Source: Gammaproteobacteria bacterium (GTDB taxonomy: Bacteria; Pseudomonadota; Gammaproteobacteria; Arenicellales; JAJDZL01). From it: 38,099 nt of DNA. Of the stretch, positions 8,136 through 26,788 are shown piece by piece. Each line of letters starts with the position of its first letter. The first letter of the stretch is position 1. The DNA lies in the NCBI GenBank assembly GCA_022824665.1, contig JAJDZL010000009.1:1-38099 (forward strand). The letters run 5' to 3'. The notes beneath the pieces are model-generated. The model did no database searches, was not told where the DNA came from, and saw only the letters and a list, made by a program, of their open reading frames with translations. Position numbers and translations under genes: made by a program.

Positions 8136-8141
8136 ACTGTA

Positions 8142-8867: not shown

Positions 8868-9266
8868 TGTTTTGTTTCTCCTTGAAGGTGAATTTTGGGT
8901 AAATTATTTTACACAAGGTTTATTTCAATACTAAATTTTTTGCACTGCAGTAATTTTTCTGTGGAGTAATAACGAAATTACCAATATGGCAGCCAAAACG
9001 GCGTATTTTTCAAGCACGTAGCACTTGAACCGAACGCGAGGTCGTTATGCAATATATCCGGCGGCAAACTGCCAGCAAAAACGCTTCAATTGAACTTCGG
9101 AAGACTCGAAACAAGTGGTTGACTGCGACAGTCACTCAATCGTCTGCACAATGGAATTTTCAACCCCTCTTCCCTTTGGTGATTAAGCAGTGAGTTTGCT
9201 CGCTGCTTCCGGGCAGAGCTTTGCAAAATCACCAGTGAGAAGTTTCCAGATATTCGGATAATCACG

Positions 9267-10700
9267 ATGTTCAGAAACAGATCTGCTGATTCCAAGTGGC
9301 GGGACATCATGGCAAAACGCCATCGAAAATCCCTTTCCCTGGTCAGTTTGTCGATCTGGCTACACGCCTCCATGGTAACTGCCATGTCGACACTGGTGCC
9401 CGACACCGTCAGGGAGATCGGTGGAATATCACTGGTCCCGTGGACCTTTGCCTTATATGACATCGGGTCCATATTGGTGGGTGCCGCCAGTGGGCTGATG
9501 GTTTTGCGCTATCGGCTGCGAAAGCCAATGGGCGTTGCAGCCCTCTTGTTTGGCGCGGGGAGCATCATCTGTGCACTGGCAACCATGATGCCGGTTGTGA
9601 TGCTTGGCAGACTCTTGCAGGGACTTGGGGGAGGCGGGCTGATCGCCATTTCATTTATCGGAATTGGCTCCCTGTTTCCCGAACGTTTGATGCTAAGGGT
9701 CATGGGTGCTGTATCAGCGATCTGGGGAGCATCTGCGTTTCTTGGGCCATTGATCGGCGCCTTTTTCGCCCAGCAGCTTTCCTGGCGCGCGGCATTTTGG
9801 TTTTTCGCGATGATGTCGATCATGTTAGCGATTTGGATACTTCGGGGCATTACCCAGGCATCGGCACCGGACATTACCGAATTGAAAAAACAGTTCCCGG
9901 TTCGGCGCATGATGGTATTGTCGATCGGTGTTGTGCTGATTGCCTCTGGCGGAATTGATATTTCATTGGTCAAAACTCCGATATTCGTACTGTCAGGGAT
10001 CGGCTTTTTTATCTGGTTTATTCGAATGGATGCCGTCAGTGAGCACAATCGGCTGTTACCCAGAAAACCGATCGGTTTCCAAAGCCAGGTCGGTGCGGGG
10101 TTAACCATGATCTTGTGCTTTACCATGGCCACCATGGTCGTAACCGTCTATGGGCCGCTGATTATCATTCAGCTGCATGAAGTGTCCATCATCGTGGCTG
10201 GATATATCGTGGCTTGTACGTCGGTGGGATGGAGTATCGGTGCTGTGCTTATCTCCGGCATACCTGCAACCCAGGATAAGCGTGCGATTGTCCTGGGGAT
10301 GGCAATGCTGTCAGTGAGCATGATTGGATTCGTCTTTGTTATCACGGCAGGGCCGCTGTACCTGCTGGCAATCCTGGCACTTGTCGAAGGCGGCGGATTT
10401 GGTGTTGCCTGGGCGAGCATCCTGCGTCGTATGCTTTTGTTGATTGATCACGAAGATCGCGGCAGAGTTTCCGCCGCGATTCCAACCATCCAGCGACTGG
10501 GTTATGCAATTGGTGCTTCCTGGATCGGCATTGTGGCCAATGCAGCGGGTTTGGAGGTGGACATTGACAGGCAGACCATTGAAACGGTTGCGCGATGGGT
10601 TTTTATAGCCGGCCTGCCGTTGGCGTTTATCGGTTGCCTCGCAACATGGCGATTTGTTTGTCGCCGACCGGGTGAAGGTACGCAATCTACGAACGATTGA
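9267..10700 (+). CDS. MFS transporter
   Basis: 477 aa, multiple hydrophobic helices; LGRLLQGLGGGGLIA and LSWRAAFWFFA motifs of the drug/H+ antiporter type. Confidence 0.85.
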   Translation: MFRNRSADSKWRDIMAKRHRKSLSLVSLSIWLHASMVTAMSTLVPDTVREIGGISLVPWTFALYDIGSILVGAASGLMVLRYRLRKPMGVAALLFGAGSIICALATMMPVVMLGRLLQGLGGGGLIAISFIGIGSLFPERLMLRVMGAVSAIWGASAFLGPLIGAFFAQQLSWRAAFWFFAMMSIMLAIWILRGITQASAPDITELKKQFPVRRMMVLSIGVVLIASGGIDISLVKTPIFVLSGIGFFIWFIRMDAVSEHNRLLPRKPIGFQSQVGAGLTMILCFTMATMVVTVYGPLIIIQLHEVSIIVAGYIVACTSVGWSIGAVLISGIPATQDKRAIVLGMAMLSVSMIGFVFVITAGPLYLLAILALVEGGGFGVAWASILRRMLLLIDHEDRGRVSAAIPTIQRLGYAIGASWIGIVANAAGLEVDIDRQTIETVARWVFIAGLPLAFIGCLATWRFVCRRPGEGTQSTND

Positions 10701-10707
10701 ATTCACT

Positions 10708-10720
10708 GATCAAGTTGATC
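10708..10720. promoter_or_regulatory. Perfect short palindrome GATCAA-G-TTGATC just after the MFS stop
   Basis: Inverted repeat read directly, extended imperfectly by tcact/gtga. Confidence 0.3.
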
Positions 10721-11407
10721 GTGACTCAAAAAATACGAGTTCTGCATCGCGCTTGGCGACCGGCGGCACTGATCACAAATCAATCTGAACGAGCCACACG
10801 CATGTCCAAAGCCAGATGACACGTCAACGGCACGAGCTGATTAACACCCAATGCGCAGCTTGGAGCCACACTTGAACATCTGCAGACTGTGCGCAGCAAA
10901 AACAAAGGCTAAAGCGCTCTGCCGCCGAGCCAATCGCCCTCAACAGCACTGCCGAGGATATGCTGAGCCATTGCCCGTCAAACCACCCTCAATTCCTGTC
11001 GCCGCGACTCGTATACCGAAATCTGCTACAGACGCAATTGCCTGCAGGATTGAGAAACAGGTGGATTTGCAACACCAGCTTGGGCATAGTCGCCGCTATG
11101 CAGCCAGAAAACCATCCATTATTCACTGAATAAAGTGTTGTTTTTGTTCTGTACTTTCCAGAATAAATGAAGCTCGGTGGTTTCCGGCTGTGCAAGGCTC
11201 TGAACCAGAAGACAATAGTCATCGACTGACTGTCTTACTCGCTTCGATTGGTTACGGCAATTTGTTCATAGGTGCTATACTGAATTTCCCCTGAATAATG
11301 TGACTTTGTGCATTAGTAAACCGCTGATGTAGCAATGTTGTTTATGAGAACGAATGATCTGAACCGAATTCGTGCCAGACGCGGTACGGTAAATATGTCT
11401 GGCTGAC

Positions 11408-12436
11408 TTGAAGATGCGGCAGTTTATTGAACGTCACACATTCTGGTCGATCATCATTGTGCTCGGCGCCGCGATATTGCTTTGGCTGCTGCTGGCTGTG
11501 TGGCCGGAGTGGGTCACCAATTTGCTCGGCCGCAAAAAGACATTCGTTAATACACTGCTTAACGGACTCACACTGGGCGGTTTGTATTTTCTTGTCGCAA
11601 GCGGCTTCACGCTGATTTTCGGTCTGATGCGCAATGTCAATCTTGCGCACGGCTCAATGTACCTGTTTGGTGCCTATATCGGCTACGAAGTGGCAGAAGC
11701 CAGCGGCAGCTGGTTTCTCGGGCTTGCCATCGCTTTTTTGGCAGTTGCTGCCAGCGGTGTGCTGATGCAGGTACTGGTCTTTCGCCGCATGGAAGGCGAT
11801 GACTTGCGCCAGACACTGGTTACGATTGCCATTTCAATCATCGCTGCTGATCTTATGCTGGCGATATGGACTGGTACAACCTACCAGTTTGCGCCGCCCG
11901 AGTGGCTGTTTGGTGCCGCGCAGCTGCCGATCGTGTCGGTAATTCGTTCCAGCGGTGAGGCGGTCTACATCAAATACCCCATCTATCGGCTCGCGGTGTT
12001 TGTTGTTGCAGTAGCAGTCGGTATTGCGCTTTGGCTGTTCCTGAACCGGACGCGGATCGGCATGATGATCCGCGCCGGGGTGAATGACCGCGATATGCTG
12101 TCTGCTTCAGGGATCAATGTGCAGTTGGTATTCGCACTGGTATTTGGCATTGGCGCAGGACTTGCCGGATTTGCAGGAGTTGTCGGGGGGACGGCCCTGT
12201 CGATTGCCCCAGGTGAAGATGTACGCTACCTGCTTGCCTCGCTGATTGTTGTCATCGTTGGCGGACTCGGTTCTGTGCCCGGCGCAGCCATCGGTGCGCT
12301 GATCATCGGGCTTGCAGAGCAGTTCGGATTGGCTTACTTTCCCACGTACGGAGTGGTGCTGACGTTTCTGATCATGGTGGTGGTGCTCGCCGTCAGACCG
12401 CAGGGGTTAATGGGGGGACAGTGGACAAGAAGATGA
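11408..12436 (+). CDS. Branched-chain amino acid-type ABC transporter permease (LivH family)
   Basis: NTLLNGLTLGGLYFLVASGFTLIFGLMRNVNLAHGSMYLFGAY; typical LivH core and C-terminal AVRPQGLMG. Confidence 0.92.
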   Translation: MKMRQFIERHTFWSIIIVLGAAILLWLLLAVWPEWVTNLLGRKKTFVNTLLNGLTLGGLYFLVASGFTLIFGLMRNVNLAHGSMYLFGAYIGYEVAEASGSWFLGLAIAFLAVAASGVLMQVLVFRRMEGDDLRQTLVTIAISIIAADLMLAIWTGTTYQFAPPEWLFGAAQLPIVSVIRSSGEAVYIKYPIYRLAVFVVAVAVGIALWLFLNRTRIGMMIRAGVNDRDMLSASGINVQLVFALVFGIGAGLAGFAGVVGGTALSIAPGEDVRYLLASLIVVIVGGLGSVPGAAIGALIIGLAEQFGLAYFPTYGVVLTFLIMVVVLAVRPQGLMGGQWTRR

Positions 12437-13506
12437 AATTTGAACACTGGTTTTTCAACGCCACACCTGGCTCGGGTTTCAAACCCTCGTGGCTCATCGT
12501 TGCAGTGTTTCTGATTGCGTATCCTGGCTTTAGCAGCGATTTCTTTACCTTTCAGATCGGCGCTTATTCACTGATTTTGGGCACGATTGCCCTTTCTTTA
12601 ATGATGCTGGCCGGATATGGCGGCATGATCAGTCTTGCCCAGATGACCGTGGCAGGCCTGGCGGGGTACCTGGTCGCTATTCTGGGTGATAACAGCGTGG
12701 GTGTCATGGGGCTCGGCTGGCCGTGGTGGCTCACGGTTTTCGTTGCCATCAGTCTGGCGGCACTGTTCAGCGCATTTGTCGGTGCAATTTCAGTGCGTAC
12801 CGAGGGTATATACACCATTATGATCACCTTGGCGATCGCTGTAGCCTTGTTCTATTTTGTGCGCCAAAACTACACAATATTCAATGGCTTTACCGGCTTC
12901 GCGGGGGTTGAGCCGCCGACGACTTTTGGTGTTTACTGGCGCAATCCTCTGCCTTTTTATTATTTGTGTCTGGCGATCGCGGTGCTATCGCTATGGGCGG
13001 TATTCTATATTTCGCGCTCCACTTTCGGCCTCAGCCTGCAGGCAATTCGGGATAATCCCCGCCGTATGCGCTCACTCGGCTTCAACGTTGCTGCGCATCG
13101 TATTTTCGCCTACTTTCTATCTGGAATTATTGCCGCGACGGCTGGTGTGCTGATGGTTTGGTTTAACGGGCGCATCTCTCCCGGCTCGGTTGGCGTCGAG
13201 GTCGTTATCGATATTCTGGTGATTGCTGTAGTCGGTGGTTTGCGACACCCGGTTGGCCCGTTTCTCGGTGCTATTGTGTTCGTATTGCTGGAAAATTTTG
13301 CCATTGATCTCATCGATCGCGAGCGATTCAACACCGTCATCGGACTTGCGCTTTTGCTGATCGTACTGTTTTCCCCGGATGGTTTGCTCGGTCTTTGGAG
13401 ACGCGCTCGCCAACGCCTGAGTGCAGCCCGGCAAACGCGGCTCGCCGCGGGCCGCGCAACCCGCGATGGCGGTTCAGAATCTTACAATTCCCTTTCTAAT
13501 CCATAA
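12421..13506 (+). CDS. Branched-chain amino acid-type ABC transporter permease (LivM family)
   Basis: LMMLAGYGGMISLAQMTVAGLAGY, AIRDNPRRMRSLGFNV; GTG start overlapping LivH by 16 nt. Confidence 0.92.
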   Translation: MDKKMKFEHWFFNATPGSGFKPSWLIVAVFLIAYPGFSSDFFTFQIGAYSLILGTIALSLMMLAGYGGMISLAQMTVAGLAGYLVAILGDNSVGVMGLGWPWWLTVFVAISLAALFSAFVGAISVRTEGIYTIMITLAIAVALFYFVRQNYTIFNGFTGFAGVEPPTTFGVYWRNPLPFYYLCLAIAVLSLWAVFYISRSTFGLSLQAIRDNPRRMRSLGFNVAAHRIFAYFLSGIIAATAGVLMVWFNGRISPGSVGVEVVIDILVIAVVGGLRHPVGPFLGAIVFVLLENFAIDLIDRERFNTVIGLALLLIVLFSPDGLLGLWRRARQRLSAARQTRLAAGRATRDGGSESYNSLSNP

Positions 13507-13529
13507 CTCAATAATTTTGGAGGAATATT

Positions 13530-14777
13530 ATGTTGAAAATCATTAGAAACACCTTGGTGGCAGCCGCATTGATCTCGCTGTCAACCGCTACCATGGCACA
13601 AGACACCATCAAGATGGGCGCGCTTGCTACCCTGGAAGGTGCATTCACGGTGCTTGGTGAAGACAGCATGCGAGGAGTGCAGATGGCCCTGGCAGAGTTT
13701 AACAGCATGGGCGGCGGCAAGAAGATTGAACTGATAACCGGTTCATCCAATGCGTCACCAGACAGCGCAATTCGCGCAGCTCGCAAGCTGGTAGAACAAG
13801 ACGGTGTACAGATCCTGGTCGGACCGCTTTCCGGATCCGAGGGGCTGGCCGTTAAGGACTATGCCAAAACTCAGCCCAATGTGACCTTTCTGAACGGATC
13901 TTCTGCCGCGCAGGATACAACTTTGCGCGAGCCGGCAGAAAACTTCTTCCGTTTCAGTACCGAGGGGGCTCAATGGATGGCAGGACTCGGTGAGTATGCC
14001 TATAACGAAAAAGGTTATCGCAGCGTTGCAGTGCTGGCAGAGGACTATTCGTTTCCATACACGCAAGTGTTCGGCTTCCTGGAGCCATTTTGCCGACTCG
14101 GTGGGAAATCTCCGGTCGATGCCCGCTTCTGGGTACCCATTGGCAACAAAGACTACTCATCAGTAATCGCAGCCCTGCCCGACGACGTTGACGCAATCTA
14201 TGTTGCGCTTGGCGGCGCGGACGCAGTCAATTTTCTGACGCAGTATGAACAGGCTGGCGGTGATCTGCCGCTGATTGGCGGTTCCATTACCGTGGACCAG
14301 AGCGTGCTGGGTTCCAAGGGACGCGCGCGAAGTTTTGTTGTCGGTACCCCTTCGGCTGGTCCGATTTCGGATACTTGGGACGATTCGAGATGGCATGCAT
14401 TTGTCGAGGCATATCAGACGCAGTTCCCGGATGGATTTCCATCTCCGTCGCTGTTTGCACACGCGTACTACATCAATACCAAGGCAGCATTGCTTGGCCT
14501 TGATCAAGTTGGCGGCGACCTGTCTGACGGCGGCGCGAATCTGCGCGCAGCACTGTCAGCACTGGAGTTTGAAACACCGACTGGCATGGTAAAACTCGAT
14601 GAGCGACGCAACGCAATTGCCGATATCTTTCTGACCGAGGTCATCGAAGGTCCGGAAGGCAACCTGCTGAACAAAACCATCGCAGTTACCTCACAGGTCA
14701 GCCAGACTTTCGGGCTGTCTTATGATGAGTTCCTGAACTACGGCCAGGTCGGACGCGAAAATCCGAAATGTGAGTAA
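13530..14777 (+). CDS. ABC transporter substrate-binding protein (Peripla_BP_6 / LivJ-like)
   Basis: Signal peptide; IKMGALATLEGAFTVLGEDSMRGVQMALAEFN; SD ggagg before ATG. Confidence 0.92.
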   Translation: MLKIIRNTLVAAALISLSTATMAQDTIKMGALATLEGAFTVLGEDSMRGVQMALAEFNSMGGGKKIELITGSSNASPDSAIRAARKLVEQDGVQILVGPLSGSEGLAVKDYAKTQPNVTFLNGSSAAQDTTLREPAENFFRFSTEGAQWMAGLGEYAYNEKGYRSVAVLAEDYSFPYTQVFGFLEPFCRLGGKSPVDARFWVPIGNKDYSSVIAALPDDVDAIYVALGGADAVNFLTQYEQAGGDLPLIGGSITVDQSVLGSKGRARSFVVGTPSAGPISDTWDDSRWHAFVEAYQTQFPDGFPSPSLFAHAYYINTKAALLGLDQVGGDLSDGGANLRAALSALEFETPTGMVKLDERRNAIADIFLTEVIEGPEGNLLNKTIAVTSQVSQTFGLSYDEFLNYGQVGRENPKCE

Positions 14778-15576
14778 GGAACCGGTGTCGAACACCCGCT
14801 CAAGTGCTTTAGAGCATCTGCAAAGTTCCGGGCGAAACGCACTGGAACTGGAGGCCATCAGTCGTCATTTTGGCGCACTGGTGGCCCTCGCAGATATCAA
14901 TATGACTGTCAGAGCGGGTGAGCGACGCGCAGTGCTGGGCTCCAATGGAGCGGGGAAAACGACACTGTTCAACACTGTAACAGGGGATTTTCTCCCGACA
15001 ACCGGGCGAGTTCGACTATTCGGCGAAGATGTCGGAGACATGCCGAGTTATGAGCGCGCCCGCCGCGGCTTGCGAAGAACTTACCAAATCTCGCTGCTGT
15101 TCGGCGGCCTGAGCGTAATGGATAACGTTTATCTTGCCTGCAGTGGCATCAAGCGAGGCCGCTTTTCGCTGCGAAGGCCACGCCGGGATGACAGCACCAT
15201 GGAATCGGCCGACGCGTTGATTCGTGCAGTACACCTTGATGATGACCGCGATGCACTGGTCGCAACCTTGAGTCACGGACGCCAGCGACAGCTGGAAATC
15301 GCACTGGCGCTGGCCGGTGCGCCGCGCTTAATTCTGTTTGATGAGCCGGCCGCCGGGCTGTCTCCGAGCGAGCGCTCAGAACTCGTCGAAATTCTGCAGG
15401 CGCTGCCGGATCACATTAGCTACATTATCATTGAGCACGACATGGATGTCGCCCTCAGGGTGGCTGAATCAGTAACCATGATGCACAATGGCCGCATCTT
15501 CAGGGAAGGAACGCCGGCAGAAATTGAAAACGATCCGCAAGTGCAGGAGCTTTACCTCGGCAATGGCCAGGCATAA
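14770..15576 (+). CDS. ABC transporter ATP-binding protein (LivG family)
   Basis: LGSNGAGKTTLFNTVTGDF Walker A, LSHGRQRQLEIALAL signature, LILFDEPAAGLSPSE Walker B. Confidence 0.93.
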   Translation: MSKEPVSNTRSSALEHLQSSGRNALELEAISRHFGALVALADINMTVRAGERRAVLGSNGAGKTTLFNTVTGDFLPTTGRVRLFGEDVGDMPSYERARRGLRRTYQISLLFGGLSVMDNVYLACSGIKRGRFSLRRPRRDDSTMESADALIRAVHLDDDRDALVATLSHGRQRQLEIALALAGAPRLILFDEPAAGLSPSERSELVEILQALPDHISYIIIEHDMDVALRVAESVTMMHNGRIFREGTPAEIENDPQVQELYLGNGQA

Positions 15577-17848
15577 TTCATCTCGAGAGCGGCGCAGAGC
15601 GGCTTCGAACAACGTGCTGCAGGTGCGTGATTTGCATGTTTATTATGGCCAGTCGCATTCTCTGCAGGGTGTCAACCTCACCATTGAACAAGGTGTCCAT
15701 GCGGTGGTCGGCCGAAATGGAATGGGCAAAACAACACTGTGTAATGCGATTATGGGGCTGGTTGCGACGCAGCGCGGATCCATCAAGTTTCAGGGCCGCG
15801 AAATCAGTGGAATGCCCGCTTATCGAATTGCATCGCTGGGTATCGGTTATACGCCACAGGGCAGACGGCTTTGGCCGTCGCTGAGTGTCGATGAGCACCT
15901 GCGGCTGGTCGAATCAGGTGGTTCCTGGACCGTGCAGCGAATTTATGAAACCTTTCCCCGGCTTGCAGAGCGACGCAGCAGCAGCGCAGGCCAGCTTTCC
16001 GGTGGCGAGCAGCAGATGCTGACTATATCACGGGCGCTGCTCCAAGACCCGGAACTATTGATACTTGATGAGCCAACCGAGGGGCTTGCACCGGTCATCG
16101 TTGACCAGGTCGAGCGGCTGCTCCAAGAGCTTGCAGCTGAGCAGGATGTTTCCATTTTGCTGATCGAACAGAACATTTCCGTTGCGACCGCGGTGGCAAA
16201 AGACGTGGCTATCATGGTAAACGGTCTCATCGGACGAATCATCCCCGCACGCGAGCTCGCGGGCGATCGGGTACTACAGCAGCGGCTGCTCGGGGTCGGC
16301 CGCCATTCACATGAGGACATTGACATTCAGCAGGCAACCGTGCCGGCGCCAGAAACTGCGCAGCGCGAGCCGCAGCCGGCGCGAACCGATTCTGTACCGG
16401 AACCGGCGCGGCAGGACGTTGTGAAAGATAAAGTCTCCAAGGGCTTTGCCTATACTGCGCCGACCCGTTGGTCAAGTGCGCTTTGGAACGAACGCGAAAC
16501 CGCTAAGACCCCGACCGCAGCCCAATTAGATCAGCCGCCCGCGCGACCTTTCGATATCAGGCCTGAACCGCTATATCAGAATTCTCCTAATACCCTGACT
16601 GCTGCAAGCGATTCATTCATTTATGTGGTTGGAACGTTTGATACGAAGGGTGCGGAGCTCAATTTCATCCGCAAATGTATCGCTGATCAGGGTATGTCAG
16701 TGAGATCAATCGATCTTTCAACCTCGGGTAAGCCCTCGTCAGCTGATGTACCGCCGCATGTCGTTGCAGCGTACCATTCAGGCGGTTCGAATTCAGTTTT
16801 TACCGGTGACCGCGGAGCATCTGTGCGCGCGATGGCAAGGGCGTTTGAACGCTACATTCAGTCGCGCAACGATATTGCCGGTATTGTTTCGGCGGCCGGC
16901 TCCGGTGGCACTGCGCTCGCCACACCGGCGATGCGCGCGCTGCCGATTGGAGTTCCCAAGATGATGATTTCAACTGTCGCGTCGGGTGATGTTTCTGCTT
17001 ACGTTGGCGCTTCCGACATCTCGATGATGTACTCGGTTGCAGACATACAGGGGCTGAACAAGATTTCCAGACAGGTTCTGACGAACGGTGCGAACGCGAT
17101 TTGCGGCATGGTACGAGACCGCGCGCGCAAACAGCGCACACCTGTAAACACTGACGATAAACCAGGTGTCGCCCTGACGATGTTTGGGGTAACAACAACA
17201 GCAGTGCAGCAGGTTATCAAGCTCATCGAAGACGAATATGACTGCATGGTGATGCATGCAACAGGAACTGGCGGGCGATCGATGGAAAAACTGGTCGACA
17301 GTGGCATGCTTGTCGCAGCGCTGGACTTGACCACCACTGAGGTTTGCGACATGATGATGGGCGGGGTTTTCCCTGCCAACGAGGATCGATTTGGCGCATT
17401 TATTCGCACCAGGACTCCCTGGGTCGGGTCAGTCGGTGCGTTGGACATGGTGAACTTCGGCCCGCGCGATACCGTACCGTCAAAATACCGCGAGCGAACC
17501 TTTGTTGAACACAATCCGCAAGTGACGCTGATGCGAACAACACCGGATGAAAACAAACGCATGGGCGACTGGATAGCCGGCCGCATCAATCTAATGGACG
17601 GCCCGGTGCGGTTTTTGATTCCCGAAGGCGGTGTTTCGGCACTTGATGCACCAGGACAGCCGTTTCACGATCCGCAGGCTGATCAGGCGCTTTTCGACGC
17701 GATCAGCGCGCGCTTTCGCGAGGCTGCCAACCGACACCTGATCCGCGTTCCCTGTCATATCAATGACCCGGCTTTCGCGCAAGCTTCGGTCAATGCACTG
17801 AATGAAATTTACGCACCCGAGCGAGTACTGAAATATGGCACGATTTGA
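15563..17848 (+). CDS. Fusion protein: LivF-type ABC ATPase + Pro/Ala-rich linker + UPF0261/Tm-1-like ATP-binding domain
   Basis: [45 protein letters not shown] (ABC), then from ~16616 [26 protein letters not shown]...[53 protein letters not shown] (Tm-1-like). One open frame; ATG 15563 preferred over upstream ORF start 15488. Confidence 0.88.
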
Positions 17849-18668
17849 ACGACGTGAACTGCTGGATAGATTTAACGCGATGCGACAGCGTGGTGAGCCG
17901 ATTATCGGCGGCGGCGCAGGCACCGGGCTTTCAGCAAAATGTGAAGAAGCAGGTGGTATCGACCTGATTGTGATCTACAACTCAGGCCGCTACAGAATGG
18001 CGGGCCGGGGATCTTTATCAGGTCTGATGCCGTATGGCAACGCCAACGAAGTGGTCATGGAAATGGCTGTGGAAGTGCTGCCAGTTGTAGCGAATACCCC
18101 GGTACTCGCCGGGGTCAATGGCACGGACCCGTTTTGTGTGTTTGATCAATATCTGGACCAGGTCAAGACGATTGGTTTTTCCGGCGTGCAGAACTTCCCG
18201 ACGGTGGGTCTCATAGATGGAACATTTCGCGCCAATCTTGAGGAAACCGGGATGTCTTATGGTCTGGAGGTTGACATGATTGGTCTGGCACACAGCAAGG
18301 ACATGTTCACCACGCCCTACGTGTTCAATGAAGATGACGCAGCCGCGATGGCAAAAGCGGGTGCCGATATTATTGTTTGTCACCTCGGTCTGACAACCGG
18401 CGGATCCATTGGTGCTGAGACTGCGCTACAACTCGAAGACTGCCCACAGCTGGTCGATACATGGGCACAATCAGCCATTCGGGTTAACCCGAATGTGCTG
18501 GTTTTGGTGCATGGCGGCCCGGTATCAATGCCGTCGGATGCCGAGTATGTACTAAGGAATACTGAAAACTGTCACGGCTTTTACGGCGCCTCTTCCATGG
18601 AGCGGCTGCCAACCGAAGTTGCACTGACAGAACAAACCAAAGCCTTCAAGGCGATTGGTACTCACTAA
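17835..18668 (+). CDS. TIM-barrel protein of the Tm-1 C-terminal / phosphoenolpyruvate hydrolase-like family
   Basis: 277 aa; [49 protein letters not shown]; overlaps the preceding Tm-1-like domain gene by 14 nt. Confidence 0.88.
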
Positions 18669-18681
18669 GAGGAATCAGGCT

Positions 18682-20748
18682 ATGACTGTTGGAATTATTG
18701 GTTCTCTGATATTGTGGCTGATTGTCGCAATTGTTGTAATCGCGGTGGTGGTGTATTTACTGCACTGGCTGTACCACCGCTCGACCAAGGAGCTGGCGTT
18801 TGTGCGTACGGGACTTGGCGGAGAAAGGGTTGTGATCAGTGGCGGTGCGCTGGTATTGCCGATCGTGCACGAGGTGACGCCCGTTAATCTGAATGTGGTG
18901 CGAATCGCGGTTTCGCGCACCAAGGATGAAGCTGTTATTACCAATGACCGTATGCGGGTCGATGTGGAAGCGGAGTTTTTCGTGCGGGTTATGCAGGAAA
19001 AAGAAGCCGTTGCTGCAGCGGCATCGACTCTGGGACGAAGAACACTGGAGGCAGGACGGCTGGCAGAGCTTCTGTCGGGTAAATTTGTCGGCGCGCTGCG
19101 CTCGGTCGCAGCAGAAATGACCCTGGATGCAATGCACGAAAATCGGGGCAACATGGTTGACAAGGTTGAGGAACGGGCAAAGGTGGCTCTGGCACAAAAC
19201 GGATTGGAGCTCGAATCGGTTGCCATCACAGATCTCGATCAGACAAGCCTGGAGTACTTTGACCCGGCAAACCGCTTTGATGCTGAGGGTATGACGCAGC
19301 TGATCGAGTTGATCGAGGGGCGCCGCAAGCTGCGCAACGACATCGAGCAGTCTTCGATGGTGGCGATACGCAGTCGCAACCTGGAAGCCGAGAAAGAAAC
19401 CTTGAAGCTCGAGCAGGAGAGCGAGAACTCGCGCCTTGATCAGGCGCTGGCGCTTGAATCGATGCGGGCGGAACAGCAGGCTGCGATTCAGCGTACCAGA
19501 TCGGCCAAGGAAGCCGAAGCTGAACAGTCTCGCATTGACAGCGAACAAAGTACCCGCGAGCGGGAAATTGCCCGTCAGCAGGTGCTTGATTCTGCAGAAA
19601 TCGCAGCCCGCGAAGCGGTGGAAAAAGTACGCATCGAACACGATCGGGAATTGAACGAAGCCCGCATCGACCGCGAGCATAAGGTGCGAGCCCGCGAGAT
19701 TAAGCAGCGCCATGACATTGAACATGCCGAGATTGTGGCAAACGAAGACCTCGAGCGCTCAAAGATTGTATCGGAGCGGCAGTTGCGCGAGGCGCGCATT
19801 ACAGCCGACGAGGAAATGGAGTCGCGGGACATCGCCCGCAGCCGCGAGGTTGAACTCGCACGTATCGCGGCGGACCAGACGCTTGAGCAAACCCGTATTG
19901 AACAGGAACGCATTGTTGATAAAGCACGCATTGCGCGCGATCGTCTGATACGAGGTGAACAAATTGCGCAAAGACAGGCGATTGAGGAAGCCGAAATTTC
20001 GGCCAGGGACGAAGTGGAACGTGCCCGACTCGCTTCTGATCGCGAACTTGACGAGGTACGAATCCTTAAGGAACGCGATCTCAAGCGACTGGAAGTCGAG
20101 CGTCAAATGGCACTGGAGCTCGCTGAAATCGAGCGACAGATAAACATCTTGAACAAACAATCCGAGGAAGCCTCAACGCGTACCGAAACGGAGACTGCAC
20201 GGGCCAAGGCCGTGGAAGCAGAGGAGCAGGTCAAAACTGTCAGGGAAAAAGAAGTTGCTGAACGAATTTCGGCGGTCGACCGGCTGCTTGCCCAAAAAGA
20301 TGCTGACACAATGATGATTGCAGCTGAAGCGGAGAAAGTTACCGCCGCGGTTGCAGCCGAAGCGCAGCGACTCAGGAATGAGGCAGAAAATATTCTGTCG
20401 GCTGATGCTCGTGCGGGGCTGTTGAGAACGAAGCTGATCGAGCGCCTTGAAGGCATTGTGCGCGAGAGCGTGAAACCGATGGAAAATATCGACGGCATCA
20501 AGATCCTGCACGTAGAAGGCCTCGGCGGTGGTGGAGACAGTCACCGCTCGCCAACTGATGAAGTCATCGAAAGTGCGCTTCGCTATCGTGCGCAGGCGCC
20601 GCTGATCGATGAGATGATGAAAGAAATAGGTGTGACCGGGTCCAATGTCACCGGTATGGGAGACATCTTCCGTTCTGCCAGAGAAGCGCAGACTTTGGCA
20701 AAGAATGCCGAGGCAAGTACCAAGTCAGACAAGAAATCTGACGACTAG
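18682..20748 (+). CDS. Flotillin/SPFH-domain (YqiK-like) membrane protein with long hendecad coiled coil
   Basis: N-terminal TM (IIGSLILWLIVAIVVIAVVVYLLHWLY), SPFH region (ELAFVRTGLGGERVVISGGALVLPIVHEVTPVNLNVVRI), then a long charged helix. ATG 18682 preceded by agagga. Confidence 0.88.
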   Translation: MTVGIIGSLILWLIVAIVVIAVVVYLLHWLYHRSTKELAFVRTGLGGERVVISGGALVLPIVHEVTPVNLNVVRIAVSRTKDEAVITNDRMRVDVEAEFFVRVMQEKEAVAAAASTLGRRTLEAGRLAELLSGKFVGALRSVAAEMTLDAMHENRGNMVDKVEERAKVALAQNGLELESVAITDLDQTSLEYFDPANRFDAEGMTQLIELIEGRRKLRNDIEQSSMVAIRSRNLEAEKETLKLEQESENSRLDQALALESMRAEQQAAIQRTRSAKEAEAEQSRIDSEQSTREREIARQQVLDSAEIAAREAVEKVRIEHDRELNEARIDREHKVRAREIKQRHDIEHAEIVANEDLERSKIVSERQLREARITADEEMESRDIARSREVELARIAADQTLEQTRIEQERIVDKARIARDRLIRGEQIAQRQAIEEAEISARDEVERARLASDRELDEVRILKERDLKRLEVERQMALELAEIERQINILNKQSEEASTRTETETARAKAVEAEEQVKTVREKEVAERISAVDRLLAQKDADTMMIAAEAEKVTAAVAAEAQRLRNEAENILSADARAGLLRTKLIERLEGIVRESVKPMENIDGIKILHVEGLGGGGDSHRSPTDEVIESALRYRAQAPLIDEMMKEIGVTGSNVTGMGDIFRSAREAQTLAKNAEASTKSDKKSDD
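19534..20160 (+). repeat. Protein-level tandem repeat: 19 uninterrupted 11-residue (33-bp) units in the flotillin
   Basis: Segments as IDSEQSTRERE/IARQQVLDSAE/IAAREAVEKVR/IEHDRELNEAR/IDREHKVRARE/IKQRHDIEHAE/IVANEDLERSK/IVSERQLREAR/ITADEEMESRD/IARSREVELAR/IAADQTLEQTR/IEQERIVDKAR/IARDRLIRGEQ/IAQRQAIEEAE/ISARDEVERAR/LASDRELDEVR/ILKERDLKRLE/VERQMALELAE/IERQINILNKQ. Confidence 0.92.
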
Positions 20749-20752
20749 TGCG

Positions 20753-21190
20753 ATGGCGACGGTATACACCTCCTCCATTATCGATGCACCTGCACCGCGG
20801 GTTTGGGAGGCACTGCGCGATTTCAATGCTTTGCCAGCCTGGCATCCCATCGTCGAGGACAGCCGCATCGAAGGCCATGCAGCCTCCGACCAGGTTGGTT
20901 GTATCCGCGCGTTCCGGCTAAGCGACGGCGGTTTCATACGCGAGCGGCTGCTGGCGTTATCCGATTACGACTACTGCTGTGTCTACGCCATATTGGAAAG
21001 TCCGATGGGGGTGGAAGACTACATTGCTACACTGAAGCTGACACCCATTACGGACGGAGACCGGACATTTGCGGAGTGGTCTGCCGAGTTTGAATGTGAC
21101 CCCAATCGGGAAGCTGAGCTTGTTGAGCAGATCGGACAGGCTGTTTTTCAGGCGGGGTTTGATGCGCTGAAGCAGCGATTTGGCGGCTGA
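20753..21190 (+). CDS. SRPBCC (polyketide cyclase/START-like) family protein
   Basis: 145 aa; SSIIDAPAPRVWEALRDFNALPAWHPIV...LKLTPITDGDRTFAEWSAEFE. Confidence 0.88.
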   Translation: MATVYTSSIIDAPAPRVWEALRDFNALPAWHPIVEDSRIEGHAASDQVGCIRAFRLSDGGFIRERLLALSDYDYCCVYAILESPMGVEDYIATLKLTPITDGDRTFAEWSAEFECDPNREAELVEQIGQAVFQAGFDALKQRFGG

Positions 21191-22667
21191 GGTGGTCACA
21201 GTCTCGCGCAGTACTGTAATCGACGCGCCGCTCGACGCGGTGTGGGGTGTTGTACGTGATTTTAACGACCATGACCAATGGCACCCGGTGGTCCGGACGA
21301 GTTATATCGAGAATTTTCTCAAGGCTGACCAGGTCGGTGCGGTACGAAACTTTTTACTGACCGGCGGCGAGCGGGTGCGGGAGAAGCTATTGACACTGTC
21401 GGACCGCGAACATAGTTTTCGCTATACCATCGTCGATGCTGACGTTCCTTTGCAAAACTATGTCGCGCAGGTTTCTCTTAAACCGGTAACCGATGGAGAC
21501 CGAACGTTCTGGTCATGGAGCTCGAAGTTTCAAACGCCACCAGGGCTTGAGCAGGAGATGGCCAAATTGGTGGCAGAAGGGGTTTATGAAGCAGGCTTTG
21601 ATGCAGTTCGTCAGCGCGTTCAGCGAACAAGACAGGCAACGCAATCCACCGCCGTACATGATGATTCGATTACCGCGCAGCCTGGCAGTTCGATGCTCAT
21701 CACGAGGTTTGGCGGTCCAGAGGTTTTTCGCAGTGATAAGTACTCGGCACCAGCACCAGGGCCAGGGCAGGTGCGAATCAGACAGCACGCAGTCGGGGTC
21801 AATTTTATTGATGTTTATTGTCGTACAGGCTATTTCAGAGCGCTCAATCCCCCTGCTGTTCCGGGGCTTGAAGCGGCAGGGGAGATCATTGACGTAGGTG
21901 AGGGTGTCACACATCTCGAATCCGGGCAGCGGGTTGGGTACGCGTGTCTACCGTTTGGTGCCTATGTCAGTGTACGCACCATGGATGCGGCACTCGTGAT
22001 TCCGCTACCCGACGGAATCGACAATATAACGGCTGCAGGCGGGCTGCTCAAAGGAATCACGGCTGATTTTCTGCTGCACCAGGTAAGCCCGGTCAGCGCC
22101 GGTGAAACTGTGCTGGTCTATGCACCGGCTGGCGGTGTTGGAAGTTTACTGTGCCAGTGGTCGAACCACCTTGGCGCAACCGTAATTGGCGCGACATCCA
22201 ACCCGGAGAAAATTCAGCCGGCACGCGAGGCAGGTGCGCATCATGTGATCACGCCCGGTAAATCGAGCCTGGTTGAACAGGTGCTCGAGCTGACAGATGG
22301 TCACGGTGCAGATGTGATATTTGATGCAGTCGGACGGGACAGTTTTGCACAGTCAGTCGCGGCACTGGCGGAACGGGGACACCTGGTAAGCTACGGTCAG
22401 GCCTCCGGCGATATTGGTGTTTGGGACATCGGTTCGCTGGCTTCAAAATCCGCTACAATTTCCCGACCGAACTACGCCCACTACACGGATACACGCGAGA
22501 AAGTAAGCGCTATTGCTGAGCGCCTGTTCAAAGCAATTGAACAGCGGATCGTACGCATCAATGTCAATCACCGCTTTGCTCTTGAGCAGGCGGAAGAAGC
22601 GCATCGATTGCTGCAGACAGGTCAAACGACCGGTTCGACTGTATTGGTTTGTGATCATCCGGTATAG
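21180..22667 (+). CDS. Fusion: SRPBCC domain + quinone oxidoreductase (MDR superfamily)
   Basis: N-term STVIDAPLDAVWGVVRDFNDHDQWHPVV...SLKPVTDGDRTFWSWSSKF; C-term from ~21693 MLITRFGGPEVF...VGVNFIDVYCRTGYF, VPGLEAAGEIIDVGEGV, VLVYAPAGGVGSLLCQW. Confidence 0.88.
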   Translation: MAAEVVTVSRSTVIDAPLDAVWGVVRDFNDHDQWHPVVRTSYIENFLKADQVGAVRNFLLTGGERVREKLLTLSDREHSFRYTIVDADVPLQNYVAQVSLKPVTDGDRTFWSWSSKFQTPPGLEQEMAKLVAEGVYEAGFDAVRQRVQRTRQATQSTAVHDDSITAQPGSSMLITRFGGPEVFRSDKYSAPAPGPGQVRIRQHAVGVNFIDVYCRTGYFRALNPPAVPGLEAAGEIIDVGEGVTHLESGQRVGYACLPFGAYVSVRTMDAALVIPLPDGIDNITAAGGLLKGITADFLLHQVSPVSAGETVLVYAPAGGVGSLLCQWSNHLGATVIGATSNPEKIQPAREAGAHHVITPGKSSLVEQVLELTDGHGADVIFDAVGRDSFAQSVAALAERGHLVSYGQASGDIGVWDIGSLASKSATISRPNYAHYTDTREKVSAIAERLFKAIEQRIVRINVNHRFALEQAEEAHRLLQTGQTTGSTVLVCDHPV

Positions 22668-22678
22668 GAATTTTCCTC

Positions 22679-23545
22679 TTGAAATTTGCTGCGTTCAAAA
22701 TAAATGGCGGTGTCGGGGTGGGCACCGTCGGTGCAACCGGCGCCAGCATCCGGCGCCTTGAATTCCAGCACCCGGCTGGGGCGGCTGACGGTGTCGCAGC
22801 ACTAATCGACAGAAAGTTGCCGAACCAGGGCGATGAGATCAAGCTTGATGACGTTGAGCTGGTCGCGCCGATTCCACAGCCGCGGCGAAATATATTCTGC
22901 GTCGGAAAAAATTACTACGATCATGCAAAGGAGTTTTCAAGATCCGGCTTTGACAGCTCAGCCGAAAAAGGCGAAGTCCCCGCCGCACCGATTGTTTTTT
23001 CCAAGGTACCGCAGAGCGTGATTGGACCGGGTATGCCGATACGCATCGACGCAGCAGTTTCGAGTGCGGTCGACTACGAAGTTGAACTTGGTGTCATAAT
23101 CGGTTTGACGGGAAGAAACATTCGTCCGGAAACCGCACTTGAACACGTTTGGGGCTATACGATCATCAACGACTTGACTGCAAGGGATTTGCAGGGTCTT
23201 CACAGTCAATGGCTGATTGGCAAATCGCAGGATACATTCTGTCCGATGGGCCCATGGGTGGTGACACGCGATGAGCTGAATCTGGCAGACACTGACATTC
23301 GCTGTTTTGTCAATGGCGAGCTTCGACAAAGCTCGAATACAGGTGCGATGATTTTCGATGTGCCGACAATCATTGCGGCAGTTTCAAACGGAATTACACT
23401 GCATGCGGGCGACATCATTGCTACCGGAACACCGGCAGGGGTCGGGATTGGATTTAACCCGCCCAAATACCTCGAACCAGGTGACGTTGTGCGATTGGAG
23501 ATTGATGGAATCGGCGTACTAGAGAACCCGGTGGAGAGCAGGTGA
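22679..23545 (+). CDS. Fumarylacetoacetate hydrolase (FAH) family protein
   Basis: RNIFCVGKNYYDHAKEF, SSAVDYEVELGVIIG, IINDLTARDLQ, GKSQDTFCPMGPW, ATGTPAGVGIG; TTG start. Confidence 0.93.
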   Translation: MKFAAFKINGGVGVGTVGATGASIRRLEFQHPAGAADGVAALIDRKLPNQGDEIKLDDVELVAPIPQPRRNIFCVGKNYYDHAKEFSRSGFDSSAEKGEVPAAPIVFSKVPQSVIGPGMPIRIDAAVSSAVDYEVELGVIIGLTGRNIRPETALEHVWGYTIINDLTARDLQGLHSQWLIGKSQDTFCPMGPWVVTRDELNLADTDIRCFVNGELRQSSNTGAMIFDVPTIIAAVSNGITLHAGDIIATGTPAGVGIGFNPPKYLEPGDVVRLEIDGIGVLENPVESR

Positions 23546-24324
23546 TGGCAGATCTGCATCTCGGCAGCATGGTGATCGAAGATGAAGGCAAAGGTCCTTG
23601 TGTGGTCATGGTGCACGGGCTTGGTGGTACATCGAACAGTTTTCAAACATTGCTACCGGCCCTCGGTAACTATCGGGTACTGAGAATCGATCTGCCGGGT
23701 GCTGGCCGGTCAGCCTATCGACCCGGTGTGCCGGGGATGCAGGGAATGGTTGCAGCGCTCAGCAACGCGCTTCGTTCAGCGGGCATTGATCGAGCACACC
23801 TTGTGGGACATTCGATGGGCACCCTGGTCTGTCAGTATCTCGCAGTGAACTCGCCAGATGTGGTTGCAAGTCTGGTGTTGTTCGGCGGGATCTATGAACC
23901 AACACCGGCGATGCGCCAACTGCTCAAGGAGCGCGCTGAAACCGCTCGGAAAAAGGGCATGGCGCCAATTGCGGAGTTTGTTTCGACGCATAGTGTTGGA
24001 GAGGCCTCGCGGTCGCGAAATCCGGTAATCAAGGCTTTCGTGCGCGAAAGTCTGATGCGCCACAATGCAATGAGTTATGCTTTTCATTGTGAAGCGCTAA
24101 GCGAGGCGGAGGCAGCGGACCACCAACGCATTGGCTGTCCAACAATGCTGATCGCAGGGGAGCATGACAGTGTTGCCCCGATTGCGATGAGCCAGAAACT
24201 TGCAGCCAAGATAGAAAATGCGAAAATGGAGGTCATTTCGAATATCGGGCACTGGCACATGATGGAAGCACCAAAGCAATGCGCCGAATTAGTTCGCGAA
24301 CATCTCGACGGACTGAAAGAGTAG
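23542..24324 (+). CDS. Alpha/beta hydrolase
   Basis: VVMVHGLGGTSNSF, HLVGHSMGTLVCQYLA nucleophile elbow, IAGEHDSVAP, NIGHWHMMEAP. Confidence 0.92.
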   Translation: MMADLHLGSMVIEDEGKGPCVVMVHGLGGTSNSFQTLLPALGNYRVLRIDLPGAGRSAYRPGVPGMQGMVAALSNALRSAGIDRAHLVGHSMGTLVCQYLAVNSPDVVASLVLFGGIYEPTPAMRQLLKERAETARKKGMAPIAEFVSTHSVGEASRSRNPVIKAFVRESLMRHNAMSYAFHCEALSEAEAADHQRIGCPTMLIAGEHDSVAPIAMSQKLAAKIENAKMEVISNIGHWHMMEAPKQCAELVREHLDGLKE

Positions 24325-24354
24325 AAGGGATCCGAATAAAGAGGTTAGAAGAAA

Positions 24355-25701
24355 ATGGCAGACAATACATCCAATTGGAACGGTGGTAACGGCTACCGAA
24401 ACGGACAGGACATTGTGTTCACCAATGTCAGAATTTTGGATGCGAGTGGCGAAACTCCTTACAACGGAGAAGTCACAGTATCCGGCAATCGCATCAAGTC
24501 GGTCAACCGATCCGGTGCGAACGGCTACTCGTGGGGCGGCAGCAATGGACTTCGCATCGACGGTCGGGGCATGACGCTGATGCCGGGGCTGATCGACGCA
24601 CACCTGCATCTTTCCTGGAATAACGCCCCTGGCATCGCGCCAATTCAGATGATGCCGGTCGAAGAACACGTTATCAATTGCGTTGAGATGGCGAAGGTAT
24701 TGATTGACGCCGGCTTTACAGCAGGCTGCGGTGCTGCTGCAGCCAAAGCGAGGCTCGACGTAGTGATCAGGGATGCCATCAATGCCGGCAAATGTCCCGG
24801 CCCACGCTATACGGCTGCAGGTCCCGAGATTACCTCAGTGGGCGGTCTTGGTGATACGAGCCTGCCGCACATTCCTCATGAAGGGCTTAATCTTGGTATT
24901 GTTGTATCAGGACCGGAGGAAATTCGCCGCACTGTACGCGAATTAATCAAACATGGTGTCGATACGATCAAGATCAATTTGTCGGGCGAGGAAATTACCA
25001 GCATGCCGGCTGAGCACAACCAATTCTCAGACGAAGAGATTTCAATGTGTGTTACCGAAGCCAAGCGCCGCGGCAAGAAGATGGCGGCACACGCCCGTTC
25101 AAAAGAATCCGTTCAAAAGTGCGTGGAATTTGGCATCGACTACATCTATCACGCGTCGTTTACAGATGAGGAAACGCTGGACAAGCTGGAAGCGGCAAAA
25201 GACAGGCATTTTGTTGCGCCTGGCCTGGCCTGGCTGATTAATACAGCCCGCAATGCCGGCGATTACGGGATAAAGCCCGGCACTCCAATCACAGATGCGT
25301 ATGAGCGGGAACTGGAAGCAGCAGTGAACAGCATGAGCGAGATGCACAAACGCGGCATCAAGGTTCTGATTGGAGGGGATTATGGGTTCGCCTGGACACC
25401 GCATGGCACCAATGCCAAAGATATTGAGTATTTTGTTGACATGGTAGGCATGACTCCGATGGAAGCCATTCAGGCCGCGACGCGCTATGGCGGCGAAATT
25501 ATGGGGATGAGCAACGAACTCGGGATGGTCCGTGAGGGTTACCTTGCTGATCTTTTGCTGGTCGATGGTGACCCGGTGTCAAACGTAAGAATCCTGCAGG
25601 ACCACAAACGACTCGTCATGATTATGAAAGACGGAAAGTTCCACAAAAAGCCAGATTTTCGGGAGTTAGAGATGTCCCATGAATTGCGCTTCAGCGCATA
25701 A
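24355..25701 (+). CDS. Metal-dependent amidohydrolase (imidazolonepropionase/prolidase-like)
   Basis: GMTLMPGLIDAHLHLSWN, KMAAHARS, YIYHASFTDEE, GGDYGFAWTPHG, GYLADLLLVDGDPV. Confidence 0.92.
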   Translation: MADNTSNWNGGNGYRNGQDIVFTNVRILDASGETPYNGEVTVSGNRIKSVNRSGANGYSWGGSNGLRIDGRGMTLMPGLIDAHLHLSWNNAPGIAPIQMMPVEEHVINCVEMAKVLIDAGFTAGCGAAAAKARLDVVIRDAINAGKCPGPRYTAAGPEITSVGGLGDTSLPHIPHEGLNLGIVVSGPEEIRRTVRELIKHGVDTIKINLSGEEITSMPAEHNQFSDEEISMCVTEAKRRGKKMAAHARSKESVQKCVEFGIDYIYHASFTDEETLDKLEAAKDRHFVAPGLAWLINTARNAGDYGIKPGTPITDAYERELEAAVNSMSEMHKRGIKVLIGGDYGFAWTPHGTNAKDIEYFVDMVGMTPMEAIQAATRYGGEIMGMSNELGMVREGYLADLLLVDGDPVSNVRILQDHKRLVMIMKDGKFHKKPDFRELEMSHELRFSA

Positions 25702-25942
25702 TTTTGTCCGGTGCTCCCAAAATCCAGTACGGGCAAAGACTCAGGAACCGATTGGCAACTGCTGGTTGCGTAGCAGGTGATTTGAATTTCTACTCACCGC
25801 AGGAAACGGACCGGTTGCATCGCAACTTCCCAAATGAGGTGTGCAACTGAACCAGGCCCGAAATAACGAATGCTTTCCTGGACTTGTGGCTGAGCAAAGA
25901 CTTTAGTTCGCTGACTGACATCACCAAACCGCCTTTTGTTCA

Positions 25943-26767
25943 TTGTTTAATCCCTGGCTAAACTTCAACCCAAACCAACCGCACCAGCTTTGGGGCATGC
26001 CGCCGATGCCGCCAGGCTTGTCACCGCCTGTGTTTGCTGAGCTCTACAACCTTGGCAACCTGATGCAGTCGCTGCAAAATCCGGCTTTTAATCAGGCTGC
26101 CGGAACAAACAGCTTGCGTCAAATGGAAGACCTCATCCGCACATTTTCTCAAGGCCCGCTTTTCGCCGGACTGCCAGGTGCCAATCTGCCCCAGCAAAAC
26201 CCCTGGCTGGGCGCTTTCAACAATAGCGCAGCGACACCGCCCTGGAGTATGAATACGCAAAATGCACCAGCACTTGGAATCGGCCGCGAGTACCAGGAAG
26301 ACTGGCGTACACTGACCGGGCTTAAAAGCGACTACGATGATGCGCTACGCGCATTTGGCGAGTTGTTTCAGGACTTCGTCAAACGCGCCAGCGAGGCGTT
26401 TTATTCGGCAAACACCAGTGCCACGGAACAAACGGATTTTAGTGCGCTCTGTAGAAAGTGGATCGAGTGCTGCGAAAACGAATTCCAGAGCTTCGCAAAT
26501 ACACCCGAGTACTCTACCCGCTTTGGACGGCTGCTCAACGCTTATCTTCGCTTGCTGCAACACACAAATCGTATGCAGGACAAATTGGCTGAGCTCAGCG
26601 GTCAACCCTCCCGCAGAGCACTCGACGCACTTAATCGCAAAGGTGCCGAGGCTCAGGCAAGGATTGAAGTTCTCGAACAGAAGATTCAGCAGCTGGAATC
26701 CGCAGCTAAAGCGAATCGAAAAAGAGCGCCGCGCGGCGGGCGATCTACAAAGAAAAGCACCAAATAG
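25943..26767 (+). CDS. phaE: Class III PHA synthase subunit PhaE
   Basis: PhaE-like length and composition directly upstream of phaC; NPWLNFNPNQPHQLWG N-term, C-terminal coiled coil and basic tail. TTG start; ATG at 25997 is an alternative. Confidence 0.8.
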   Translation: MFNPWLNFNPNQPHQLWGMPPMPPGLSPPVFAELYNLGNLMQSLQNPAFNQAAGTNSLRQMEDLIRTFSQGPLFAGLPGANLPQQNPWLGAFNNSAATPPWSMNTQNAPALGIGREYQEDWRTLTGLKSDYDDALRAFGELFQDFVKRASEAFYSANTSATEQTDFSALCRKWIECCENEFQSFANTPEYSTRFGRLLNAYLRLLQHTNRMQDKLAELSGQPSRRALDALNRKGAEAQARIEVLEQKIQQLESAAKANRKRAPRGGRSTKKSTK

Positions 26768-26788
26768 CGTATTTTCGGAGTTCAGTTA

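Follow-up and report, generated by a model that had tools for sequence, protein, structure and literature searches.

Gene content and setting of the operon

The window, by which we mean the whole 38,099-nucleotide stretch of gammaproteobacterial DNA that was analysed, holds between positions 11408 and 25701 a run of 12 intact, co-directional open reading frames on the + strand, with gaps of no more than 30 nt. These genes, and the larger segment in which they lie, are as follows.

11414–12436, +, LivH-type permease (PF02653 1.7e-36; ORF from TTG 11408, likely ATG 11414)
12421–13506, +, LivM-type permease (PF02653 3.1e-37)
13530–14777, +, LivK-type periplasmic binding protein (PF13458 2.8e-54)
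14770–15576, +, LivG-type ABC ATPase (PF00005 1.9e-26, PF12399)
15563–17848, +, fusion of a LivF-type ABC ATPase to UPF0261, a Tm-1/MarK-like predicted kinase (PF00005 9.9e-29, PF06792 3.8e-61, PF23189 9.5e-87)
17835–18668, +, TIM-barrel partner, PEP_hydrolase family (PF09370 1.9e-129; solved relative 2p10, Mll9387)
18682–20748, +, flotillin with SPFH and Flot domains and a long coiled coil (PF01145 1.8e-17, PF15975 7.1e-33; ORF from TTG 18655)
20753–21190, +, SRPBCC protein 1 (PF10604 8.4e-24; ORF from 20645, conserved start ATG 20753)
21180–22667, +, fusion of SRPBCC protein 2 to an NADPH:quinone oxidoreductase, QOR (PF10604 4.8e-23, PF00107, PF08240)
22679–23545, +, fumarylacetoacetate-hydrolase-family enzyme, FAH, type A tail (PF01557 2.3e-72)
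23542–24324, +, alpha/beta hydrolase, PcaD-like, type A tail (PF00561 4.6e-29)
24355–25701, +, amidohydrolase related to Xaa-Pro/Arg carboxypeptidases, type A tail (PF01979 1.1e-35)
8887–26266, no strand, segment absent from the congeners' phaB–phaE interval (MFS gene at 9267–10700 plus the operon), putative insertion

An earlier note on this DNA had described a co-directional, nearly gapless gene run with six overlapping start/stop pairs. Both descriptions hold: every claimed gene is an intact + strand ORF at its given coordinates, and the overlaps at 12421/12436, 14770/14777, 15563/15576 (ATG), 17835/17848, 21180/21190 and 23542/23545 are all present on inspection of the sequence, the remaining spacings being 4–30 nt (LivM–LivK 23, TIM barrel–flotillin 13, flotillin–SRPBCC1 4, QOR–FAH 11, alpha/beta hydrolase–amidohydrolase 30). 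The claimed domains are found as well, with Pfam scores far above the cut-offs. The partition into genes required revision; the count is 12, with the second ATPase and UPF0261 forming a single ORF (15563–17848), as do SRPBCC2 and the quinone oxidoreductase (21180–22667), and the starts of LivH and of the flotillin are moved to the likely ATGs at 11414 and 18682.

Upstream, the operon is preceded by a 707 bp non-coding stretch; downstream, 241 bp of non-coding DNA separate it from phaE. Scans for sigma-70 promoters and terminators gave site counts no higher than in shuffles; an Rfam scan of the window gave zero matches, so the 707 bp leader contains no known riboswitch. In the window the operon is located between phaB and phaE; in five congeners it is absent, the phaB–phaE spacing is 0.15–3.3 kb, and phaRB and phaEC lie close together. 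Nucleotide similarity to loci L215 and L216 ends at 8886 and restarts at 26267/26285, and we infer that the segment 8887–26266 is an insertion; a search for repeats at its borders returned chance-level matches only.

A recurrent unit with an exchangeable tail

Matching gene order is found in dozens of genomes, with order and fusions kept across many families, and the LivH-type permease is 84–88% identical to those of relatives in the order. The TIM gene was examined at 53 loci with wide flanks: LivHMGF accompanies it at 50 of them, UPF0261 at 51 and a flotillin at 48. A census of 398 evenly sampled Pseudomonadota genomes places a flotillin within 6 kb of the LivF–UPF0261 fusion in 14 of 14 cases, drawn from 6 genera, as against 0 of 37 cases for an unfused UPF0261 gene (Fisher p 8e-13, kinship uncorrected). 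In some relatives (L076, L077 and L102) the importer, UPF0261 and SRPBCC are present and flotillin is absent. The 12-gene arrangement recurs as a unit and is no accident of position: that functionally separate genes are merely co-directional here has a negligible probability, being countered by the conserved order, the fusions and the census and refuted by the neighbourhood search. This search was the refutation test that the earlier note had set for itself, and flotillin, UPF0261 and TIM genes proved to be conserved beside LivHMGF; the assignment of the flotillin to an import and catabolism operon is likewise upheld, by the conserved neighbourhood and by a flotillin lineage of its own. Our search of the open-access literature found no description of the cluster.

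These comparisons show a conserved core consisting of a LivHMGFK-type importer, the LivF–UPF0261 fusion, the TIM-barrel partner, a dedicated flotillin and two SRPBCC proteins, and a tail that is swapped between relatives: type A, found in the window, comprises QOR, FAH and the hydrolases, type B comprises a CO-dehydrogenase-like Mo-hydroxylase, and the two never occur together. Cultured strains that carry a type A cluster include Hwanghaeella grinnelliae (L042) and Kaistia hirudinis (L064). The three hydrolase-type enzymes previously assigned to the operon are thus present, but as a replaceable module that about half of the relatives lack, and not as a fixed part. The type B loci yielded neither the form I nor the form II CoxL motif, so CO is not indicated as a substrate. 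In the type A tail, the alpha/beta hydrolase scores 124.8 bits against the PcaD-like model TIGR02427, below its cut-off of 255.85, and the amidohydrolase, whose solved relatives are 3mtw, 3be7 and 2qs8, scores 236.9 bits against NF051886, below the cut-off of 500. All 29 assessable relatives have SRPBCC2 joined to QOR in one protein, and the QOR fold of the fusion matches E. coli QOR (1qor). CoxG-type SRPBCC proteins tether redox enzymes to membranes (PMC11962113); assignment of the two SRPBCC proteins to the CoxG family was considered and rejected, as both match PF10604 and one weakly PF03364, with no match to COXG (PF06240) at E up to 10.

The importer and its fused UPF0261 domain

The claim of a complete LivHMGF/K-type importer is confirmed by Pfam, with all five components in one operon: two BPD_transp_2 permeases, two ABC ATPases and a Peripla_BP_6 binding protein. 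Specificity for branched-chain amino acids or urea is unsupported by equivalog scores, which lie below the cut-offs for LivF (141.8 vs 441 bits), UrtE (216.4 vs 285.8) and UrtA (57 vs 492.75). The nearest solved structures of the binding protein are the receptor 4zpj (extracellular ligand-binding) and the 4ey3/4eyg/4eyk and 4evq groups; reading a substrate from these was tried and set aside, the similarity being at the family level only.

In the fusion, the LivF part is followed by a linker of ~100 residues, UPF0261_N (16616–17122) and UPF0261_C (17159–17809); of 68 assessable relatives, 63 have the two parts in one protein and 5 (about 7%) have them unfused, and UPF0261 and the TIM barrel are separate ORFs in the window and in all 73 assessable relatives. 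An AlphaFold model of the window UPF0261 matches Tm-1 (TM about 0.87) and PDB 9mpy, the UPF0261 protein Saro_1862 crystallised with bound acetovanillone. In N. aromaticivorans, acetovanillone catabolism begins with the single-component kinase MarK (PMC13101465), and we infer that Saro_1862 is MarK. At L190, a UPF0261 protein 69% identical to Saro_1862 is followed by BCCP, biotin carboxylase, carboxyltransferase and a HAD phosphatase, which constitute the Hpe (hydroxyphenylethanone) set; the carboxylase of this pathway requires a phosphorylated substrate (PMC9618137), and by its gene context the L190 protein occupies the kinase slot of the route.

The window protein has both the N and the C domain of UPF0261, with residues conserved to Saro_1862, and 26 residues are invariant between the two branches. 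Taken with the structure and the L190 gene context, this makes it probably a small-molecule kinase, and the LivF ABC ATPase would therefore be fused to a predicted kinase of this kind. At 32% identity and on a separate branch, the window protein need not share the kinase activity and substrate of Saro_1862. The label "Tm-1-like" given before has no antiviral sense in this setting, and a plain Tm-1-like module misses both the probable kinase identity and the fusion to an ABC ATPase. Phenolic, ketonic or cyclic acids are mildly favoured as the substrate by the homology to a kinase and by the family of the binding protein; the earlier "small carboxylated or cyclic compound" is a guess.

Proposed function and relation to known systems

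The flotillin has Band_7 and Flot domains. In the flotillin tree the cluster flotillins lie to the same side of one branch (SH-aLRT 87), with those of type B loci in a single clade (100), and in the 398-genome census 14 of 17 long flotillins, and 0 of 35 short ones, stand beside the LivF–UPF0261 fusion. SPFH2 flotillins have a conserved partner in their operons, NfeD (PMC2636767); no NfeD-type gene was found among the operon genes or the scanned flanking genes. The cluster flotillins are a separate lineage with a long coiled coil, and a role as a membrane platform for importer and enzymes is plausible. It is possible, though doubtful, that the flotillin instead serves general membrane fluidity or stress during uptake of a membrane-active substrate and is not an enzyme scaffold: bacterial flotillins are known to affect membrane fluidity (PMC7360373), and flotillins also occur in catabolic clusters of solvent or amine type that are unrelated to this one (L193–L195), but the long lineage tracks the fusion exactly, through several host families.

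We give an even chance to the view that the locus is one horizontally moving import and catabolism operon, in which transport-coupled phosphorylation by the predicted kinase would precede catabolism of the presumed substrate at a membrane site that the flotillin is proposed to organise. The binding protein would capture a small organic substrate for import by LivHMGF, and the LivF-tethered UPF0261 would phosphorylate it as it enters, a form of metabolic trapping; the TIM-barrel enzyme would work on the phosphorylated or enolised product. A flotillin ring would collect importer and enzymes at the inner membrane face, where SRPBCC1 and SRPBCC2–QOR may perform a redox step, SRPBCC carrying the substrate or a quinone, and FAH, the alpha/beta hydrolase and the amidohydrolase would then open the product and hydrolyse it. 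That the importer phosphorylates its cargo on entry through LivF–UPF0261, as a functional analogue of PTS group translocation, while a dedicated flotillin holds importer, kinase and quinone-linked enzymes together in a single catabolic membrane domain, is put forward tentatively.

The fusion to LivF could instead serve regulation or stoichiometry. On this account, which we consider rather unlikely, the locus is an ordinary importer and catabolic unit with no phosphorylation on entry, in which UPF0261 is a ligand or ATP sensor, the TIM barrel a signalling domain and the fusion only a means of holding stoichiometry constant or of regulating the transporter. Upstream of several relatives lies a Fis/AAA-type regulator (TIMreg) whose N-terminal domain is a TIM domain from this same family, so the TIM fold can serve sensing, and the plant UPF0261 protein Tm-1 is an inhibitor of viral replication (PMC5028733). 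Against it stand L190, where a UPF0261 protein takes the place of the kinase in an established catabolic pathway, and the 26 residues invariant across the Saro_1862 and window branches.

Bacterial flotillins have been studied chiefly for general membrane effects; a lineage tied to one importer and its enzymes opens the question of what a bacterial flotillin organises to direct test. An ABC ATPase fused to a probable small-molecule kinase suggests that phosphorylation is coupled to transport outside the PTS, and a testable function is offered for the widespread UPF0261/TIM-barrel pair, from which the plant Tm-1 resistance protein descends. The operon is widespread in Alphaproteobacteria, and its recurrence points to import, tagging and degradation of a compound at one membrane spot.

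Among known systems, bacterial SPFH2 flotillins (YqiK, YuaG/FloT) share the SPFH and Flot architecture of the window flotillin, which differs in its longer coiled coil, its own lineage and the lack of an NfeD partner. Aerobic CO-dehydrogenase-like clusters with MoxR and CoxE-type VWA proteins replace the QOR/FAH/hydrolase tail in type B relatives and are absent from the window. LivFGHMK/HAAT importers have the same component set, whereas the window LivF bears a C-terminal UPF0261 domain, the scores fall far under the LivF and Urt equivalog cut-offs, and a flotillin and catabolic enzymes are encoded in the importer's own operon. Plant Tm-1-like proteins join UPF0261 and a TIM barrel in one polypeptide (PMC5028733); in the window the same two domains are separate, with UPF0261 attached to an ABC ATPase and no viral connection. 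A Pfam scan of the window operon found neither the three-subunit biotin-dependent carboxylase nor the phosphatase of the Hpe/Acv pathway. With the MarK/Saro_1862-type kinase the window UPF0261 shares its protein family, the invariant residues and a catabolic context, but it is fused to LivF and paired with a TIM-barrel protein.

The operon and its place in the genome

The window carries an operon of 12 intact, co-directional genes in which every junction is an overlap or a gap of at most 30 nt, bearing out the earlier note's description of co-directional genes with almost no space between them; likely start codons lie at 15563, 18682, and 20753. The features, with "~" marking two domains in one reading frame, are:

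7662-8867: phaR and phaB of the polyhydroxyalkanoate (PHA) locus
11408-25701, + strand: LivH, LivM, LivK-type binding protein, LivG, LivF~UPF0261 fusion, TIM-barrel PEP_hydrolase-family protein, flotillin, SRPBCC1, SRPBCC2~quinone-oxidoreductase (QOR) fusion, FAH-family enzyme, alpha/beta hydrolase, amidohydrolase
25943-27850: phaE and phaC

The operon, with GC of 0.548 (0.486 to its left, 0.514 to its right), is preceded by 707 gene-free bp and an MFS gene and followed after 241 bp by phaE and phaC; operon and MFS gene together split the PHA locus. The source genome, a 2.6 Mb draft that is 87% complete, has a single UPF0261 gene. Five congeners lack the operon at this site, with 0.15-3.3 kb between phaB and phaE, and nucleotide similarity to congeners ends at 8886 and returns at about 26267. 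The empty pha interval, the location of the operon elsewhere in genomes G003 and G005, and a version with a different catabolic tail (type B, below) in the congener G002 indicate that the unit appears to move as a whole; border repeats of the presumed insert were looked for and none were found.

Conservation of the core and its flotillin

Long homologues occur in 9 of 59 relatives (the LivF-UPF0261 pair in 8, UPF0261 alone in 1), with matching gene order through the adjoining genes as far as contigs reach. Scanning 84,980 species with the TIM protein and taking the best 80 loci, a choice biased toward close relatives, gave loci mostly in Alphaproteobacteria. Among the matches listed, 53 loci have at least 8 kb on each flank: LivH, LivM, LivG, and LivF are each present in 50, UPF0261 and SRPBCC1 each in 51, and flotillin in 48, so that the UPF0261, TIM, and flotillin genes are kept beside LivHMGF, a neighborhood the earlier note had singled out for checking. 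LivF~UPF0261 is in a single frame in 63/68 assessable loci and SRPBCC2~QOR in 29/29 (again among the matches listed), and median spacing of matched parts within the core is 8-42 nt.

Because the best-80 scan carries selection bias, we also searched 398 evenly drawn Pseudomonadota genomes with the PF06792 and PF15975 profiles. A flotillin lies within 6 kb of all 14 fused LivF~UPF0261 loci vs none of the 37 unfused UPF0261 loci, a complete split whose p of 8e-13 overstates independence, since the 14 loci come from 6 genera and 8 are from one genus. Flotillins longer than 700 residues fall within LivF~UPF0261 clusters in 14 of 17 cases, vs 0 of 35 shorter ones; a 15th long flotillin is in L181, a variant locus that lacks a TIM gene and whose UPF0261 is diverged. 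When 67 flotillins are placed in a tree (quick method), all cluster flotillins lie on one side of a branch with SH-aLRT 87, those of type B form one clade with support 100, and the window flotillin groups with same-order relatives within an otherwise mostly alphaproteobacterial clade.

The L181 locus (L181:4734-16000, type C) has LivF fused to the strongly diverged UPF0261-like domain, flotillin, and two SRPBCC genes; after these come genes for a metallo-beta-lactamase-fold protein and for an aldehyde dehydrogenase. On Martelella and Hoeflea plasmids (L193:320-9536, L194:1752-9236), another flotillin sits between sugar-type ABC transporter genes, together with an annotated bacteriorhodopsin, and alcohol/semialdehyde dehydrogenase genes. 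On an Aminobacter plasmid (L195:3938-9680), a flotillin directly 5' of an N,N-dimethylformamidase subunit gene, with ABC binding-protein genes, suggests that flotillins may have a wider role in catabolic importer operons.

Exchangeable tails and a putative kinase

Two tails alternate among the matches listed. Type A (21 loci), lying 3' or 5' of LivH, is that of the window: SRPBCC2~QOR, FAH, hydrolase, and amidohydrolase. Type B (25 loci) has the FAD and FeS subunits of a CO-dehydrogenase-like enzyme along with its two Mo-cofactor subunits, a MoxR ATPase, a CoxE-like VWA protein, and another amidohydrolase, with an AraC regulator and often an alcohol or aldehyde dehydrogenase upstream. No listed locus has both, and in each type SRPBCC2 immediately precedes the oxidoreductase. 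Plasmids of Azospirillum, Terrarubrum, Ensifer, and Bosea carry simpler UPF0261-TIM-SRPBCC triads, whose neighbors are ABC importers of the sugar or BMP type or other genes. With the alternating tails, these make the core appear to be a front end taking various catabolic ends. In the type B relatives L116:6982-24356, L030, and L069, where the shared importer/UPF0261/TIM/flotillin/SRPBCC core is joined to the CO-dehydrogenase-like molybdenum hydroxylase, MoxR, and CoxE-like genes, the large subunit of the hydroxylase is divided over two genes.

The AlphaFold model of the window UPF0261 (mean pLDDT 91.9) convincingly matches only Tm-1 and 9mpy, the acetovanillone-bound UPF0261 protein Saro_1862 of Novosphingobium aromaticivorans (32% identity). 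Acetovanillone breakdown there begins with the single-component kinase MarK (PMC13101465), which we infer to be Saro_1862. Independent support comes from L190: its UPF0261 protein is 69% identical to Saro_1862, and in the cluster at L190:8961-14288 the genes after UPF0261 encode a biotin carrier, a biotin carboxylase, a carboxyltransferase, and a HAD phosphatase. The carboxylase of the hydroxyphenylethanone pathway takes only phosphorylated substrate (PMC9618137), and L190 is, judged by gene content, such a gene set with UPF0261 in the kinase position. Across 27 sequences from both UPF0261 branches 26 residues are invariant, including D16, T17, K122, D141, N155, H221, and D244 (positions counted along the aligned domain). 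Together, these observations make kinase chemistry likely for the UPF0261 domain of the operon.

Proposed pathway and comparison with known systems

The unit, its fusions, its flotillin lineage, and its modularity are observed here, and the following scheme would fit them. LivHMGF with the LivK-type protein would take in the substrate, which the tethered putative kinase would phosphorylate upon arrival; the TIM-barrel partner, whose known relative is 2p10, would act next, SRPBCC2~QOR (closest fold: E. coli QOR) would carry out a redox step, and the hydrolytic enzymes would finish the pathway, with flotillin as a possible platform. The TIM fold also recurs, presumably as a sensor domain, in a Fis-type regulator that several relatives encode upstream of the operon (L027:7809-9557; also L022, L040, L068, L076, L102); this protein, absent in the window, has an N-terminal TIM-barrel PEP_hydrolase domain and a C-terminal AAA lid/Fis HTH. 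CoxG is a precedent for SRPBCC proteins as membrane carriers or anchors (PMC11962113); assignment of the operon's SRPBCC proteins to the COXG family was rejected, as profile comparison gives no such membership.

Every protein family of the operon is already known. The gene combination was not found in the open-access literature searched. We regard the unit as a catabolic importer operon in which two traits, the ATPase~putative-kinase fusion and the dedicated flotillin, have no precedent known to us. A published survey of prokaryotic SPFH operons ties flotillins to NfeD, the partner in SPFH2 operons, and never mentions ABC transporters (PMC2636767).
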